A stretch of DNA of 48,677 nucleotides. Source: a virus. Positions 4,541-35,064 of this stretch are shown here, one piece after another (the stretch's first letter is position 1; the number at the start of each line of letters is the position of its first letter). A program made the translations under genes and the position numbers. The notes under the pieces were generated by a model. It was not told where the DNA came from, did no database searches, and saw only the letters and a list, made by a program, of their open reading frames with translations. The stretch is taken from positions 1-48,677 of the IMG/VR virus record IMGVR_UViG_3300009506_000054; one strand, written 5' to 3'.

Positions 4541-4671
4541 GTCCATGGTCAATTCTCAGAATCGCTCAGGAAAAGCGCGACACATGACACGCATTGCATT
4601 TCTCTCATCCACAGAATGACCATGGACACGTTAGAAATGACGGTCTTTCAGAGCGCGCCAGGGTCAATTCT
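4541..4671. repeat. Inverted repeat GTCCATGGTCA plus direct repeat GGTCAATTCT
   Basis: GTCCATGGTCA at 4541-4551 is the exact reverse complement of TGACCATGGAC at 4617-4627; the match continues through a bulge into ATTCT/AGAAT. GGTCAATTCT (4547-4556) recurs as a direct copy at 4662-4671. If transcribed the arms would make a hairpin with a 65-base loop. Candidate for a small RNA, a protein-binding site or a replication-associated site. Confidence 0.5.
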
Positions 4672-8840: not shown

Positions 8841-9242
8841 ATGCCTACTATCCAAGTAAAAGCCAGAGATATCGAGAAGATGGGGAGGCTTCAGTGTACT
8901 TACCGTGAGGCTGCAGCATTTCTCGGTATCAGACTTCATCAATTCAGGAGTTTGCTCGCTTCGGACGAGACCGCTGCAAAGGCCTGGGAAAAAGGGTTGA
9001 TGATGGGTCGCATCTCGCTTCGTAGGAAGCAGTTCCGACTCGCGTCAGCCAATTCTTCCATGGCTATCCATCTCGGGAAGCAATATCTTGGTCAGCGAGA
9101 AGTTGTGGCCAATGAGCACTCGGGTCCTGGGGGTGGTCCTATCGAGTTTGATGCAAGCGATCTGAGTCAGGATGAGCGTAATGAACTCCGGGAACTTCTC
9201 ACTCGGTCAACTCAATCCAGCTCAGGCGCTGAAGGCCCTTGA
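8841..9242 (+). CDS. terS: Terminase small subunit
   Basis: 133 residues from ATG 8841. Residues about 20-33 (TYREAAAFLGIRLHQF) form a helix-turn-helix expected to bind the packaging site, and the segment AWEKGLMMGRISLRRKQF ... MAIHLGKQYLGQREV is typical of small terminase proteins, followed by an acidic tail. The frame is open upstream to TTG 8784 but that part overlaps both promoters. No ribosome binding site precedes 8841 or the GTG at 8823, in keeping with leaderless translation. The 3' end overlaps terL. It would recognise viral DNA and stimulate the large subunit. Confidence 0.8.
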   Translation: MPTIQVKARDIEKMGRLQCTYREAAAFLGIRLHQFRSLLASDETAAKAWEKGLMMGRISLRRKQFRLASANSSMAIHLGKQYLGQREVVANEHSGPGGGPIEFDASDLSQDERNELRELLTRSTQSSSGAEGP

Positions 9243-10662
9243 CCGAGCTGACTCTGAGGCTAGTCTTAGGGAGTTTATAAAACTCGCTTGGCCAGTTTTG
9301 GAACCAGGTAGAGAGTTCGTTATGGGTTGGCACATCGATGCTGTCTGTGAGCATCTTGAAGCTGTAACACGAGACGAAATAACTCGACTGCTAATCAACG
9401 TCCCTCCCGGTTGTATGAAATCCCTGACTACTGAAGTTTTCTGGCCTGCATGGGAATGGGGTCCTAAAGGGATGCCTGGGAAGAGATACGTCTCAGCTTC
9501 ATACTCTAACGATCTTACTGTTCGTGATAATCGACGATGCCGTAATCTTATTAAATCGGAATGGTACCAGGGGCTTTGGGGAAAACGATTTAAGCTTGTT
9601 GGGGATCAGAATGCTAAGATGCGGTTTGACACGGACTTTGCCGGATTCAAGATCGCTACCTCCGTTGGTGGTCTTGGTACTGGTGAACGAGGAGATCGGT
9701 TCATCATCGATGATCCTCACAATATCAAGGACGGAGAATCTGACGCCAAACGATTCGCAGCTCTTCTGTGGTTCACGGAAACTGTTCCTACTCGTATGAG
9801 CGATCCCGAAAAATCGGCTATCGTGATTATTATGCAGCGAGTTCATGACCAAGACATCTCTGGCTATATTCTCGAGAAGGAATTGGGATACGAACATCTT
9901 ATGCTTCCGATGGAGTTTGAACCAGAACGTAAGTGTACTACTTGCATCGGGTTTGAAGATCCTCGAATCAAAGACGGGGAGTTGATGTGGCCAGAGCGAA
10001 TGACTGAAGCAGTTGTAGAGCGAGACAAAAATGTGTTAGGAGCTTATGCTGTTGCTTCTCAGTTTCAGCAACGACCGGCTCCTCGCGGTGGTGGGATGTT
10101 CAAACGTGAGTGGTTTGAGATTGTTGACGCTCCTCCTGCCCAAAGGGAGACAATTCGTGCATGGGATTTAGCTGCCACTGATTCTCATACTGCTGCGTAT
10201 ACTGCTGGTGTTAAGATGAGTCGGTGTAAGGATGGTTTCTTCTATATTGAAGATGTGGTCAGAATTCAAGCATCCGAGCACAAGGTTGAAAGGCTTATTC
10301 TTAATACAGCAGCTAATGACGGATATAGCACGCGTATAAGTGGTCCACAAGATCCGGGACAGGCTGGTAAAGCTCAAGCCAAATACTATATTCGACAGCT
10401 TGCTGGTTACGACGTTCGGTTTACTCCCGAGACTGGTGACAAGATTACGAGAGCTAAACCGATGGCTGCTCAGGCTGAAGCTGGTAATATCAAGATGATT
10501 CGTGGTCTGTGGAATGAGGAATACCTAGATGAGCTTTGTAATTTTCCATTTAGTAAGTTCCAAGACCAGATGGACGCATCGAGTAGAGCCTTTAATGGTT
10601 TAATTCCTCCTCGTAATTTACTAGTCGCTGTTGGACCACGGGAGTTGCAGATCAATGGGTAA
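9172..10662 (+). CDS. terL: Terminase large subunit (packaging ATPase-nuclease)
   Basis: 496 residues. The ATPase domain shows a deviant Walker A at about 78-84 (PPGCMKS), the ASYSNDL segment, and Walker B IIDDPH at 178-183. The C-terminal RNase H-like nuclease begins with RAWDLAAT near 325 and includes YIEDVVRI and the DKITRAKPMAAQAEAGNI stretch. It pumps DNA into proheads and cuts the concatemer. ATG 9172 is used, with ATG 9181 an alternative; both overlap terS by about 60-70 bases, and the family needs about 30 residues before SLREFIKLAW. The stop overlaps the portal start by 8 bases. Confidence 0.96.
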   Translation: MSVMNSGNFSLGQLNPAQALKALDRADSEASLREFIKLAWPVLEPGREFVMGWHIDAVCEHLEAVTRDEITRLLINVPPGCMKSLTTEVFWPAWEWGPKGMPGKRYVSASYSNDLTVRDNRRCRNLIKSEWYQGLWGKRFKLVGDQNAKMRFDTDFAGFKIATSVGGLGTGERGDRFIIDDPHNIKDGESDAKRFAALLWFTETVPTRMSDPEKSAIVIIMQRVHDQDISGYILEKELGYEHLMLPMEFEPERKCTTCIGFEDPRIKDGELMWPERMTEAVVERDKNVLGAYAVASQFQQRPAPRGGGMFKREWFEIVDAPPAQRETIRAWDLAATDSHTAAYTAGVKMSRCKDGFFYIEDVVRIQASEHKVERLILNTAANDGYSTRISGPQDPGQAGKAQAKYYIRQLAGYDVRFTPETGDKITRAKPMAAQAEAGNIKMIRGLWNEEYLDELCNFPFSKFQDQMDASSRAFNGLIPPRNLLVAVGPRELQING

Positions 10663-15827: not shown

Positions 15828-16202
15828 ATGGCGACCGAAAATTCTGTCCTCTCGGTTTCGTTGCCTGTGGCCGCTGACTACTCCACGACGGGACAGTACC
15901 TGTTCGTGGATGTGAATTCCAGCGGGCAGGCTGTCAAGGTGTCTGCTCAGGGAGCTACCGCTATCGGTGTGCTTCAGGATAACCCGGCAGCTGCTGGCCG
16001 TGTAGGCCGTGTGGCTATCGGAGGATTCGTCAAGGTCATGGCTGGTGCCACGATCACAGCTGGTGCCAAGCTGACTACCGGTGCAGATGCCCGTGCTGAG
16101 GTCGCTGCTACTGGCGACTGGATCCACGGACGAGCGATCACTGGTGGGGCTGATGGTGAGATTATCACCATGCTCTGGGAGCCCCGGGACATCTCGGCTT
16201 AG
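15828..16202 (+). CDS. Capsid decoration / cement protein
   Basis: 124 residues after AAAGGAGGAGATC. Ala/Gly/Val-rich all-beta sequence with VKVSAQGATAIGVLQDNPAA and VAIGGFVKVMAGATITAGAK, the pattern of DUF2190-like or lambda gpD-like decoration proteins encoded immediately before the major capsid gene. It would bind the expanded capsid surface and stabilise it. Strong G/C third-position bias fits very high expression. Confidence 0.8.
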   Translation: MATENSVLSVSLPVAADYSTTGQYLFVDVNSSGQAVKVSAQGATAIGVLQDNPAAAGRVGRVAIGGFVKVMAGATITAGAKLTTGADARAEVAATGDWIHGRAITGGADGEIITMLWEPRDISA

Positions 16203-16238: not shown

Positions 16239-17225
16239 ATGGCCGGACCTACACAGCATGACGTTCATGTTAATAGGCCGCTGACCAATATCAGCATCGC
16301 CTATATGCAAGACGCGGCTGGCTTCGTAGCCGATCGTGTCTTCCCGAACATTCCTGTCGGAAAGCAGTCCGATCTGTACTGGGAGTACGATCGTGGCTAC
16401 TTCAACCGCGACGAGATGGAGAAGCGTGCAGACGGGACTGAGTCCGCTGGTGGCCACTACAAGATGGACCAGGGGAACTACTACGCCGATGTCTGGGCCT
16501 TCCATCACGACGTGGGAGACCAGCGTCGCGCGAACTCCGACGAACCCCTCCAACCCGACCGTGAAGCGACTGAGCTCGTTTCTCAGAAGGCTCTTCTGAA
16601 GCGGGAGATCCTCTGGGCGACCAACTACTTTGGTGCTTCGATCTGGACAACTGATCTGACTGGCGTCGCTGCTGCCCCTGGTGCGAGTCAGTTCCTTCAG
16701 TGGAACGATGCTTCTTCGACTCCGATCGAAGACATCCGAGCTGAGCGCCGTGCTCAGCAGCTGCTGACCGGCTTCAAGCCGAACACCCTCGTTCTGGGTC
16801 CCGAGGTCGCGGACGCACTGTACGACCACCCGGATATCATCGACCGTGTCAAGTACGGTCAGACTCCGGGCCGTCCTGCGGACATCGACACTTCGGACCT
16901 GGCTATGCTGTTCAAGATTCCTCGCGTCTTCGTGATGGAGGGAATCAAGAACACGGCGGCCGAGGGTGCTACTGAGAGCAACGCGTTCATCGGGAGTAAG
17001 GGTGCGCTTCTGTGCTATGCTGCTCCCTCTCCCGGTCTGATGACTCCGTCTGCTGGCTACACGTTCAGCTGGACGGGGCTGCTCGGTGCTGGTGCCATGG
17101 GTGGCCGGATCGCCAAGTTCCGGATTACCAAGATCAAGGCCGACCGGATCGAGATCGAGATGGCAATGGTCCAAAAGAAGATCTCCGCCGACATGGGGAC
17201 CTTCTTCGCTACGGCCGTCGCGTAG
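16239..17225 (+). CDS. Major capsid protein
   Basis: 328 residues, ATG 16239 after AGAAGGAGATGAGAA. The start (NRPLTNISIAYMQDAAGFVA), DRVFPNIPVGKQSDLYWEYD and the C-terminal TFSWTGLLGAGAMGGRIAKF, KIKADRIEIEM pattern match HK97-fold major capsid proteins of the type found next to XkdF-like proteases. Codon use is the most G/C-ending in the window. No obvious delta domain, in keeping with a separate scaffold gene. Confidence 0.92.
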   Translation: MAGPTQHDVHVNRPLTNISIAYMQDAAGFVADRVFPNIPVGKQSDLYWEYDRGYFNRDEMEKRADGTESAGGHYKMDQGNYYADVWAFHHDVGDQRRANSDEPLQPDREATELVSQKALLKREILWATNYFGASIWTTDLTGVAAAPGASQFLQWNDASSTPIEDIRAERRAQQLLTGFKPNTLVLGPEVADALYDHPDIIDRVKYGQTPGRPADIDTSDLAMLFKIPRVFVMEGIKNTAAEGATESNAFIGSKGALLCYAAPSPGLMTPSAGYTFSWTGLLGAGAMGGRIAKFRITKIKADRIEIEMAMVQKKISADMGTFFATAVA

Positions 17226-32083: not shown

Positions 32084-32487
32084 TGCCTCAGTTCAGTAGA
32101 ACAAGCAAGGCCAGGCTAGCTACCTGTCACCCCGACATTCAACAGGTCTTCAACGAAGTTATAAAGCACTTCGATTGCAAGATTCTCGAGGGTCATCGGA
32201 CAAAGGAAACGCAGGATAAGCTGTTCTATGCGAAGCCTCCGAGGACTCAAGTCAAGTATCCCAACAGCAAGCACAACTCCTCGCCGTCTCGTGCTGTAGA
32301 TGTAATGCCTTATCCACTTGATTGGGGGGACCGGGAGCGATGCAGTCTATTTGCTGGGTTTGTCCTAGGAACAGCTACTGCCATGGGTATTACTCTTCGT
32401 TGGGGAGGCGATTGGGACATGGACACTGAGGTAGACGACAACCGATTCGACGATCTACCTCACTTCGAGTTGAAAGGAGACCACTAA
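32083..32487 (+). CDS. Endolysin, M15-type L-alanyl-D-glutamate / VanY-like peptidase
   Basis: 134 residues from ATG 32083 (GTG 32080 is an alternative in the same frame). Zinc ligands are predicted as His64 (SKHNSSPSRAVDV), Asp73 and His127 (DLPHFEL), with Asp124 the probable catalytic residue; the T5 endolysin has the same order. There is a two-residue insertion between the first His and the Asp compared with the usual SxHxxGxAxD. It would cut peptide cross-bridges in peptidoglycan; no wall-binding domain is present. Confidence 0.85.
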   Translation: MPQFSRTSKARLATCHPDIQQVFNEVIKHFDCKILEGHRTKETQDKLFYAKPPRTQVKYPNSKHNSSPSRAVDVMPYPLDWGDRERCSLFAGFVLGTATAMGITLRWGGDWDMDTEVDDNRFDDLPHFELKGDH

Positions 32488-32837
32488 TGAGTCCTCTCGA
32501 CAATCCTGAGTACAAGGACGAGGCAACTGCCATCGTCAACGCGGTCAACAACATCCGCGATGCCATCATGACGAATGGTATGGGTACTCAGACTGTCATG
32601 CTCATCCTGGGTGAGCTGATGGGTCTGGCTACCGTCGTCAACTCGTTCAACACTCTGCCGAAGGACCAGCGTGATGAGTTCTTCGCTGAGGTGTGGGATG
32701 CTGCCATCGGGAACGAACCAGCTGCTTTGGTCAACCAGGTTGGCTTCATCAGTGGCGATGCTCTCGAGGCAGTAAGCGACGGTCTGAAGGGCGCTGTGCT
32801 GGCGTACTTCAACAAGACCATCCCGCTGCCGGCCTAG
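32487..32837 (+). CDS. Unknown protein at the end of the lysis cluster
   Basis: 116 residues, one-base overlap with the endolysin stop, AAAGGAG upstream. Mostly helical, acidic and moderately hydrophobic (TVMLILGELMGLATVVNSF), with G/C-rich third positions like the capsid genes, pointing to high expression. A membrane or virion role is possible; no family recognised. A hairpin at 32863-32899 follows. Confidence 0.6.
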   Translation: MSPLDNPEYKDEATAIVNAVNNIRDAIMTNGMGTQTVMLILGELMGLATVVNSFNTLPKDQRDEFFAEVWDAAIGNEPAALVNQVGFISGDALEAVSDGLKGAVLAYFNKTIPLPA

Positions 32838-33037: not shown

Positions 33038-33045
33038 GATACAAA

Positions 33046-33104
33046 GGGAGCCGTCCCCTCACGTAAGAACGGCTCCCCCGGACTAGGATGGGAATATCCT
33101 AGTC
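33046..33104 (-). terminator. Tandem hairpins ending the replication operon
   Basis: On the - strand GACTAGGA/TCCTAGTC (33104-33097 with 33088-33081) overlaps the stop codon of the helicase/HTH gene, then GGGAGCCGT/ACGGCTCCC (33077-33069 with 33054-33046) is followed by TTTGT. The second stem is 9 perfect pairs. Confidence 0.6.
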
Positions 33105-33380
33105 GTCGTCACCTTCCTTCTTGCTGGAGATGATGTCGATGACCTCGTCCATCTCCGCGAGCGTGTCCCAGCCGTAGCGCCCCCCGGCCTTCTCGATGTC
33201 GTGGTTGCGCAGCTTGGCCCGAGCCGAGGCCGGGGAGATCCCGAGCTTGTCGGCCAGGTCCGTGATGGTGTACTTCTTCGGCGGGTTCTTCGGCGTCTTC
33301 TCTTCCTTCTCGGAATCCTTGGCCTTGGCCTTGGTCTTCGAGTTGGCAGCGGTCTTGGTGGAGGTCTTCTTCTTAGCCAT
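33099..33380 (-). CDS. Nested basic HTH-like DNA-binding protein
   Basis: 93 residues from ATG 33380, in frame with the helicase gene. AAGGAG lies 8 bases upstream and matches the site used by the DUF932 gene almost base for base, and a promoter lies at 33449-33478. The protein has a histone-H1-like Lys/Ala/Thr N-terminus (MAKKKTSTKTAANSKTKA) and a C-terminal helix-turn-helix-like part (ITDLADKLGISPASARAKL then GGRYGWDTLAEMDEVIDI). It probably binds DNA. Separate expression is inferred from signals in the DNA. Confidence 0.7.
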   Translation of the reverse strand: MAKKKTSTKTAANSKTKAKAKDSEKEEKTPKNPPKKYTITDLADKLGISPASARAKLRNHDIEKAGGRYGWDTLAEMDEVIDIISSKKEGDDD

Positions 33381-34748
33381 GACGAGGTCTCCTTGTTGAT
33401 GGTGTTTCCTGAATTGTCTCAGAACCTTTTCTGAAACATTACGCTTTGATAATATAGTCTCGTAGATTACCTTGTCAACCGTATTCTTTGCATAAAGCAA
33501 ATAAATCCGGACCGCCTTCTCCTGACCAGGTCGGTGTACCCGTTTAAGAGCTTGCTCATAGTCTATATAGCTATGAGTACAGGAGTAGAATATTGCCACA
33601 GAGGAGCGGAATAAATCGATTCCAACTCCTCCAGCTTTCATGTTAGCTACTAAAATATCTATCTTACCTGCTTGGAAGTCGCGTATAGTTTGCGTCCTTG
33701 TTTTTCGGGTTTTGCCTTCGATCGTTGATATACGATAATTTCCTCCGGACAACGACGCGACGATCTGAGCGATCTCAAACCTGTATTTAGTGAATATTAC
33801 GATCGGAAAATCTAGTTTATCAACTAAACGGAGTAGTCTTCTAATCTTGGCGGAGCCAACTTTATGTATCTCTTCCTCATCGTCTTTGACGAAACCACCG
33901 CATATCTGTTGGAGACGGACAAGTTGTGTGATGGCAAGATCAGCGGTAACGTCTCTACCTTTGATCGAAGTAACCATGGTCTGGTCCATCTCCTGGTACA
34001 TCCTTTTCTGTTTCCCACGAAGAATGACCGGGACGTAATGATAACTAATGGGTGGAAGATCAGTGACATCGGTAGCATCGAGGTAGTAGCAGTAGGGCGC
34101 CACCTTTGCCAACACCTCGGCAAGTTTTCCGTATCTAAACACTCTCTTATATCCCATATACCCTGATGGTCTAAGATACCTTGACTCATAGTCAAACCAT
34201 CTGGTCCCAAGTACATCAGGATTGAGAAACCGCATCTGAGCCCATATTTCTTGAGGATCATCTGTAAGATCATCAAACGGAGTCCCACTGAGTATAATCC
34301 TTCTACCGTTTGTTTTAAACCTTCCAGCTGCTCTGGACTGAGATGACCCTCTTGCTTTGATTCTTTGAGATTCATCATACACCACCATGGACCAAGGATG
34401 ATCGATCATTTTCTTTAGTCTTCTGTGGCCTGGCCTATCTCCGCGTCTTGGAGTAATAGCTTCATAATGAACAAGTAAAACCTTAGGTTTGGGAGCTTTC
34501 TTATATTCCTCCCAAGTTCTGTAGTATTCAATATCTACTCGGTCTAAATTGTCTTCCCAAGTTGTAGAAATATTTGCAAGTGGAACTACAAGGAGAGCTT
34601 CGAACTCGTCGTCTATGAGTTGTTCAAGAACTGCTAATGTGATCCATGTCTTACCTGCTCCCTGTTTAGCGAATAGTGCAGCTGTGTGAGTATTCATAAC
34701 CCAGTCAGCTGCTGGTTTTTGTCTTGGCCATAGCTGATCGTACAGCAT
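33099..34748 (-). CDS. SNF2-type DNA helicase fused in frame to an HTH-like domain
   Basis: 549 residues. The SF2 core has Walker A KQGAGKTW (about 28-35), Walker B DESQ (125-128), SGTP motif III (154-157), and in the second RecA domain QALKRVHRPGQEKAV. The helicase proper ends near residue 455 (QFRKHHQQGDLV) and the frame continues without a stop into a Lys-rich linker and HTH-like domain that also has its own promoter, ribosome binding site and ATG (33380). ATG 34748 lies inside the 3' end of the VRR-NUC gene (44-base overlap). Helicase plus VRR-NUC is a common phage replication/recombination pair. Confidence 0.88.
   Translation of the reverse strand: MLYDQLWPRQKPAADWVMNTHTAALFAKQGAGKTWITLAVLEQLIDDEFEALLVVPLANISTTWEDNLDRVDIEYYRTWEEYKKAPKPKVLLVHYEAITPRRGDRPGHRRLKKMIDHPWSMVVYDESQRIKARGSSQSRAAGRFKTNGRRIILSGTPFDDLTDDPQEIWAQMRFLNPDVLGTRWFDYESRYLRPSGYMGYKRVFRYGKLAEVLAKVAPYCYYLDATDVTDLPPISYHYVPVILRGKQKRMYQEMDQTMVTSIKGRDVTADLAITQLVRLQQICGGFVKDDEEEIHKVGSAKIRRLLRLVDKLDFPIVIFTKYRFEIAQIVASLSGGNYRISTIEGKTRKTRTQTIRDFQAGKIDILVANMKAGGVGIDLFRSSVAIFYSCTHSYIDYEQALKRVHRPGQEKAVRIYLLYAKNTVDKVIYETILSKRNVSEKVLRQFRKHHQQGDLVMAKKKTSTKTAANSKTKAKAKDSEKEEKTPKNPPKKYTITDLADKLGISPASARAKLRNHDIEKAGGRYGWDTLAEMDEVIDIISSKKEGDDD
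33449..33478 (-). promoter_or_regulatory. Promoter inside the helicase gene for the nested HTH gene
   Basis: On the - strand TTGACA (33478-33473) is followed after 16 bases by TATATT (33456-33451) or after 18 by TATTAT (33454-33449). Transcription would start about 60-70 bases before ATG 33380. Confidence 0.6.
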
Positions 34749-35030: not shown

Positions 35031-35064
35031 GGGGCGGTACCCATGGCTCCCCGAGCACCGCCCC
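35031..35064 (-). terminator. Terminator after the SSB-like gene
   Basis: On the - strand GGGGCGGT ... ACCGCCCC (35064-35057 with 35038-35031), extended by GCTC/GAGC inside, is followed by ACTTTGTT. It lies between the SSB-like and VRR-NUC genes and probably only attenuates, because the operon continues. Confidence 0.6.

Follow-up and report, generated by a model that had tools for sequence, protein, structure and literature searches.

A predicted winged helix-turn-helix protein nested in frame at the end of an SNF2-type phage helicase gene

In-frame internal starts are already known from M13 gene I/XI, mcrB, cas8b and pIGRK repR, as far as the accounts cited here describe them. In filamentous phages, the gene of a phage ATPase carries an internal in-frame start (gene I/gene XI; PMC5408679). 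In-frame internal initiation also yields the small subunit in the McrB-L/McrB-S pair (PMC3874153) and in the Cas8b/Cas11b pair (PMC11899642), and RepR and RepR' of pIGRK are two in-frame DNA-binding replication proteins, the shorter of which comes from an internal start (PMC6854812). In the literature that we searched by title and abstract start, none was found describing such nesting for phage SNF2 helicases. In the present study, we analysed one locus in a stretch of viral DNA of 48,677 nucleotides (IMG/VR record IMGVR_UViG_3300009506_000054), called the window hereafter. Its likely explanation, judged from sequence comparison and structure prediction, is an in-frame nested gene pair, with a helicase-HTH (helix-turn-helix) fusion and an abundant free HTH protein as the two predicted products. 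The locus is composed as follows.

33099..34748, minus strand: whole ORF of 549 aa, a helicase-linker-winged HTH fusion (phrog_62 match, AlphaFold2)
33381..34748, minus strand: SNF2-type helicase part, codons 1-456 (Pfam, codon adaptation)
33099..33380, minus strand: nested gene for a predicted free 93-aa Lys-rich winged-HTH protein (internal ATG, codon adaptation index, separate homologues in relatives)
33285..33395, minus strand: linker of the fusion, modelled as disordered over residues 452-488 with pLDDT below 50 (AlphaFold2)
33117..33272, minus strand: predicted winged-HTH domain, residues 37-88 in free-protein numbering (predicted fold, structural comparison)
33044..33079, minus strand: GC-rich hairpin of 15 bp, fold -26.9 kcal/mol, a candidate terminator directly 3' of the shared stop codon

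An earlier reading made from the sequence alone had claimed that the helicase frame runs without a stop into a 93-aa Lys-rich, HTH-like tail, and this was confirmed on the ORF 34748..33099 (minus strand). The ATG at 33380 lies inside the helicase ORF in the same frame, with the stop codon common to both, and the nested HTH gene makes up the last sixth of the helicase gene. The ORF follows genes on the minus strand for a family-A-like DNA polymerase, an exonuclease, a Sak4-like protein and a VRR-NUC-like endonuclease. A similar GC-rich hairpin is found just 3' of the stop of the fused gene in L067, the closest relative, at about 4631-4663, and the hairpin after the shared stop is probably a conserved terminator in both. 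Another terminator-like hairpin of 13 pairs was seen at 35031-35064 (minus strand), where it separates the VRR-NUC-like gene from the acidic 35082-35744 gene. The virus of the window infects bacteria; its terminase large subunit (9172-10662, plus strand) is closest to those of Rhizobium (50% identity) and Shewanella (46% identity) phages, which hints at a proteobacterial host.

The identity of the long product was examined by profile and structure searches. The ORF matched the phrog_62 DNA helicase with E 4e-98 over residues 5-476, and the helicase part contains Pfam SNF2-rel_dom (E 3.7e-19, 69.4 bits, cut-off 24.9) and Helicase_C (E 8.8e-14, 52.1 bits, cut-off 23.5). Residues G32 K33 T34, D125 E126 and R403, which we take to be ATPase motif residues of the helicase, are unchanged across 20 aligned sequences. 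Foldseek matched the helicase to SNF2-family ATPases (CSB, ISW1, Rad54) with E down to 3e-23. By sequence and predicted fold, residues 1-451 are an SNF2-type phage DNA helicase. The full-length AlphaFold2 model, built with 20 relatives as input (mean pLDDT 83.2), folds into two parts, one covering residues 1-451 and the other about 489-543, with a disordered stretch (452-488) between them; the internal Met (residue 457) lies at the edge of this linker. When the tail was modelled alone, block pLDDT was about 71-88 over residues 31-90. The claim of an HTH-like tail was thus upheld, since the modelled end of the tail is a winged HTH that forms a separate C-terminal domain in the predicted fusion. 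The tail missed the Pfam gathering cut-offs of HTH_17 (18.3 bits, cut-off 27) and HTH_10 (20.9 bits, cut-off 23.1), and the HTH profile against sequences of solved structures gave a best E of only 0.17. In structural comparison it came closest to RacA, IF2-N, Par and MerR proteins, with Z of 6.1 and lower, the best being RacA 5i44_A (VIA Z 6.1, 58 aligned, rmsd 2.5, where the stated guide is Z 8). These Z values are too low, and therefore no family is claimed for the HTH.

Relatives were gathered by family-specific searches and 117 loci, window included, were analysed; single-protein scans of viral contigs yielded no close relatives and the genome collection only two distant helicases. A helicase core with a nearby HTH of at least 38 bits was present in 56 of the 117 loci, and these became 47 distinct loci on removal of seven near-duplicates and two fragments (L062-L065 had been removed beforehand as duplicates). 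L010, L039 and L040, with weak HTH matches of 31-36 bits, were left uncounted; 42 loci have a helicase core and no HTH of at least 30 bits, most of these helicases being distant and some truncated at a contig end, and a further 14 are without a helicase core match. The HTH start was taken as the last ATG or GTG with A, G, P, V or R as the next residue, at most 140 nt before the domain, and was placed by hand in L067 and L078. When the 47 loci were compared for a stop at the boundary, the two genes were separate in 22, with the HTH start 1-28 nt past the helicase stop, overlapped out of frame in 12, and were fused in frame in 13, window included. A boundary stop is thus not common to all relatives, as 13 of the 47 run on in frame. 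The out-of-frame overlaps measure 41-229 nt (76-229 nt in 11 of the 12, 41 nt in L068). A fusion made by frameshifting was considered for the overlap clade, in which a slippery-looking A run is visible in L023 alone. In L006 (3934-4162), the helicase frame overrunning the HTH gene gives a Pro/Arg/Ser-rich tail.

The closest relative found, L067, is 51-52% identical to the window over the aligned length and is also fused, as are the eight distinct phages of clade B, which are phages of Pseudomonas, Serratia and Yersinia. An error of sequencing or assembly, or else a stop lost very recently, is a most improbable explanation of the locus; it could draw on the separate genes with a stop in 22 of the 47 loci, but independent records are fused, including the named isolates Lebethron, Almagne, PMBT14, Serbin and P744 as well as L067. 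The sequence-only reading had offered recent stop loss as its alternative, and this was not supported: the in-frame fusion shared by L067 and clade B rules out error or recent loss as a general explanation.

The second question is whether the fusion matters at all. It is possible, if rather doubtful, that the free HTH protein alone matters and that the fusion is a tolerated by-product of a lost helicase stop. The stop does appear freely placed, as in 11 of the 12 overlap loci the helicase frame extends 76-229 nt into the HTH gene out of frame, their odd tails imply that the helicase tolerates them, and L016 is fused within the separate-gene clade. Against this, the in-frame fusion has lasted in both the window and L067 despite their divergence, it is kept in all eight distinct clade B phages although their linkers change in length (always in frame), and the HTH of the modelled fusion is a domain of its own at the end of a linker. 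A quick maximum-likelihood search gave an unrooted tree, in which the window groups with L067 (SH-aLRT 94), clade B and L078 are placed on one side, and L016 is nested among the separate genes. On this tree the fused state needs at least three changes, two of them forced by strong branches; the tree being unrooted, the ancestor may also have been fused and have split later. Put most simply, these comparisons would mean that the HTH start cassette is constant and the helicase stop moves.

The signals around the internal start in the window are the following.

33378..33380, minus strand: ATG start of the nested gene, at codon 457 of the whole ORF (L067 has GTG here)
33389..33394, minus strand: Shine-Dalgarno (SD) AAGGAG, anti-SD duplex energy -8.5 kcal/mol
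33473..33478, minus strand: -35-like TTGACA at conserved NT[IV]D codons
33456-33451 or 33454-33449, minus strand: -10-like TATATT (16-nt spacer) or TATTAT (18-nt spacer), respectively

The AAGGAG and the ATG at 33380 are both present before the tail as the sequence-only reading had it, and where it placed a consensus promoter (33449-33478) we found a promoter-like element, TTGACA/TATATT at 33478, with 11 of 12 consensus letters and its homologous position kept in relatives. In 30 Markov-resampled copies of the whole 48.7-kb window, sites of at least 11/12 are expected 0.83 times per copy; the window itself has perfect sites at 921 and 1492 (plus strand) and further ones at 33478 and 28054 (minus strand). 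The matches at 921 and 1492, both 12/12 and sigma-70-type, begin TTGACAAG like the element at 33478. Given these other matches and the null value, the element at 33478 alone is therefore only modestly surprising, and it is the homologous position in relatives, not the element itself, that makes the match convincing. A promoter-like match of at least 9/12 lies within 15-140 nt upstream of the HTH in 45 of the 47 loci, compared with a rate of 5.7% in 1051 control stretches, and the window element occupies codons homologous to the elements of its relatives. Every one of the 18 sequences in alignment A10, which joins L016 with 17 of the 22 separate loci, contains CTATTGACA; most members of the overlap clade have TTGAC[AG]-16-TGTAAT upstream of the HTH, and clade B has TAGAAT with TGGAC or TTGAC before it. 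As a caveat on the promoter reading, conserved I/V-D residues account for part of the TTGAC core. Furthermore, the -10-like TGTAAT of many relatives is without the A of TATAAT and does not rank as a strong -10 of the sigma-70 type.

The ribosome-binding signal was followed through the same loci. With two starts set by hand, an SD match of -5.0 kcal/mol or better stands at the HTH start in 47 of 47 loci, so that all 13 fused loci keep both the internal start codon and an SD of this strength. In comparison, about 17% of 442 other in-frame ATGs of the same genes reach this SD energy, and 79 of 6482 other in-frame codons of the fused helicases are an ATG or GTG with such an SD. Synonymous-codon shuffling of 10 fused loci found the SD not exceptional given the peptide (p 0.04-0.53), only L005 being significant (0.04). 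The ten letters AAGGAGACCT stand upstream of the start in both the window and L067 in differing codon phase and are read as QGDL in the window and as RRRP in L067; the same letters in another phase were therefore kept as nucleic acid and not as peptide. Between these two sequences, the comparison indicates that start function and SD are kept and the peptide is not.

Constraint at the DNA level was scanned in 12-codon windows from Walker A on, with the expectation taken from each helicase's own codon usage. In the overlap clade and in clade B, synonymous identity peaks in the last 32 helicase codons before the HTH start, ranking first of 455 windows in the former (11 sequences, z 3.47) and first of 407 in the latter (8 sequences, z 3.86). 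In the separate clade (19 sequences, L016 included), z before the HTH is 2.3-2.4, at a rank of about 20-23 of 435-449. Top synonymous conservation in the separate clade is near Walker A (z about 3.5) and may be another embedded signal. RNA structure was rejected as the cause of the clade B constraint: RNAalifold on the eight sequences gave -0.6 kcal/mol and zero compensatory pairs. The conserved promoter-like DNA and the synonymous constraint mark a candidate promoter of the nested gene, from which transcription might start inside the helicase gene. An inverted repeat, TCGATCA-N14..15-TGATCGA, was also seen in the helicase end of the separate clade (e.g. L013, L029), between promoter-like element and SD and overlying the conserved residues KSITE..FYDRL; it is a possible operator for self-control by the HTH protein.

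Codon usage was measured against the major head protein gene (16239-17225, phrog_1005) and its neighbour (15828-16202, phrog_673, head scaffolding) as reference for the codon adaptation index (CAI). We found that the tail, with a CAI of 0.815, ranks first of the 39 window genes, that is, it has capsid-like codon usage, and that the helicase part, with 0.327, ranks last. The codon adaptation of the tail was equalled by none of 3080 equal-length windows in 36 other genes. The best unsupervised GC3 breakpoint fell at codon 454, three codons from the internal ATG, and the Lys codons AAG/AAA number 18/0 in the tail and 13/20 in the helicase (Fisher p 1e-5). Ranked second by CAI among the 39 genes is 32487-32837 (plus strand), which encodes a 116-aa protein without PHROG match at E 0.001. 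Across the 47 loci, GC3 is higher in the HTH than in the helicase in all 22 separate and all 12 overlapping loci but in only 6 of the 13 fused ones, the codon shift being absent from most clade B tails. The break fits high expression of the free HTH protein in the lineage of the window, with weak or no excess in clade B; the high GC3 of the tail could also be inherited composition instead of expression.

That clade B tails share the codon usage of their helicases is a point for a further explanation, namely that the fusion is the sole product and that its inner signals (start codon, SD and promoter-like DNA) were left over from a gene that was once separate. Helicases often bear accessory DNA-binding domains, which also speaks for it. 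We consider it improbable, as start codon and SD are intact in every fused locus and synonymous conservation at the HTH start of clade B is the highest of the whole helicase.

Overall, the proposal of one locus with two products, a fusion and a free HTH protein, gains support from the conserved start, SD and promoter-like DNA and from the codon break of the window, and from these observations we infer that both proteins are made. Ribosomes starting at 34748 would produce the 549-aa SNF2-family helicase with a winged HTH attached through a flexible, Lys-rich linker. Within the last 35 helicase codons, another group of signals (TTGACA/TATATT, AAGGAG, ATG 33380) would give the free 93-aa winged-HTH protein, probably in large excess over the fusion. 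In relatives, the helicase stop would have shifted freely, lying before the HTH, out of frame inside it, or being lost in frame. The free protein may coat or mark phage DNA in replication or recombination, and the fusion, carrying one covalent HTH copy, may hold the motor, as by a tether, on the same DNA or in the same protein assembly, presumably in the recombination-replication module beside the polymerase. More speculatively, a motor and its abundant DNA-coating partner might share a frame so that a minority of partners is born tethered, with free and tethered copies co-assembling on DNA; the overlap would evolve by the helicase stop sliding past a fixed promoter-SD-start cassette, which the partner possibly controls.

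If true, this would be a widespread gene with two products from one frame in phage replication modules. In the examined fused named phages the annotation holds the helicase only, and the free HTH protein is therefore unseen there. The separate, overlapping and nested relatives form a natural series for the origin of a nested gene, which the cultured members make testable. In addition, SNF2 helicases often accompany phage family-A polymerases, according to the account in PMC6302109, and the HTH protein is a possible partner for such helicases.

Compared with the described systems, the locus resembles gp1/gp11 in that the free C-terminal product there acts in the same complex as the long one; unlike the window, with its SNF2 helicase and winged HTH, that pair is a membrane assembly ATPase with a transmembrane C-terminal product, as PMC5408679 presents it. 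RepR/RepR' of pIGRK are alike in having one locus, an internal start and DNA-binding products, and unlike in that RepR' is described as an initiator shortened at its N-terminus (PMC6854812) and is no separable domain of which a stand-alone homologue exists. In the Brevundimonas phages Polewnik and Strzyga, the homologous helicase and HTH adjoin with the same SD-start design, but TGA ends the helicase and the HTH begins 2 nt later in another frame. McrB and Cas8b likewise give a small product from the gene of a large nucleic-acid machine (PMC3874153, PMC11899642). Unlike the small products in those accounts, that of the helicase locus has a stand-alone homologue in relatives and promoter-like DNA that is conserved; in the window, it also has a codon usage of its own.
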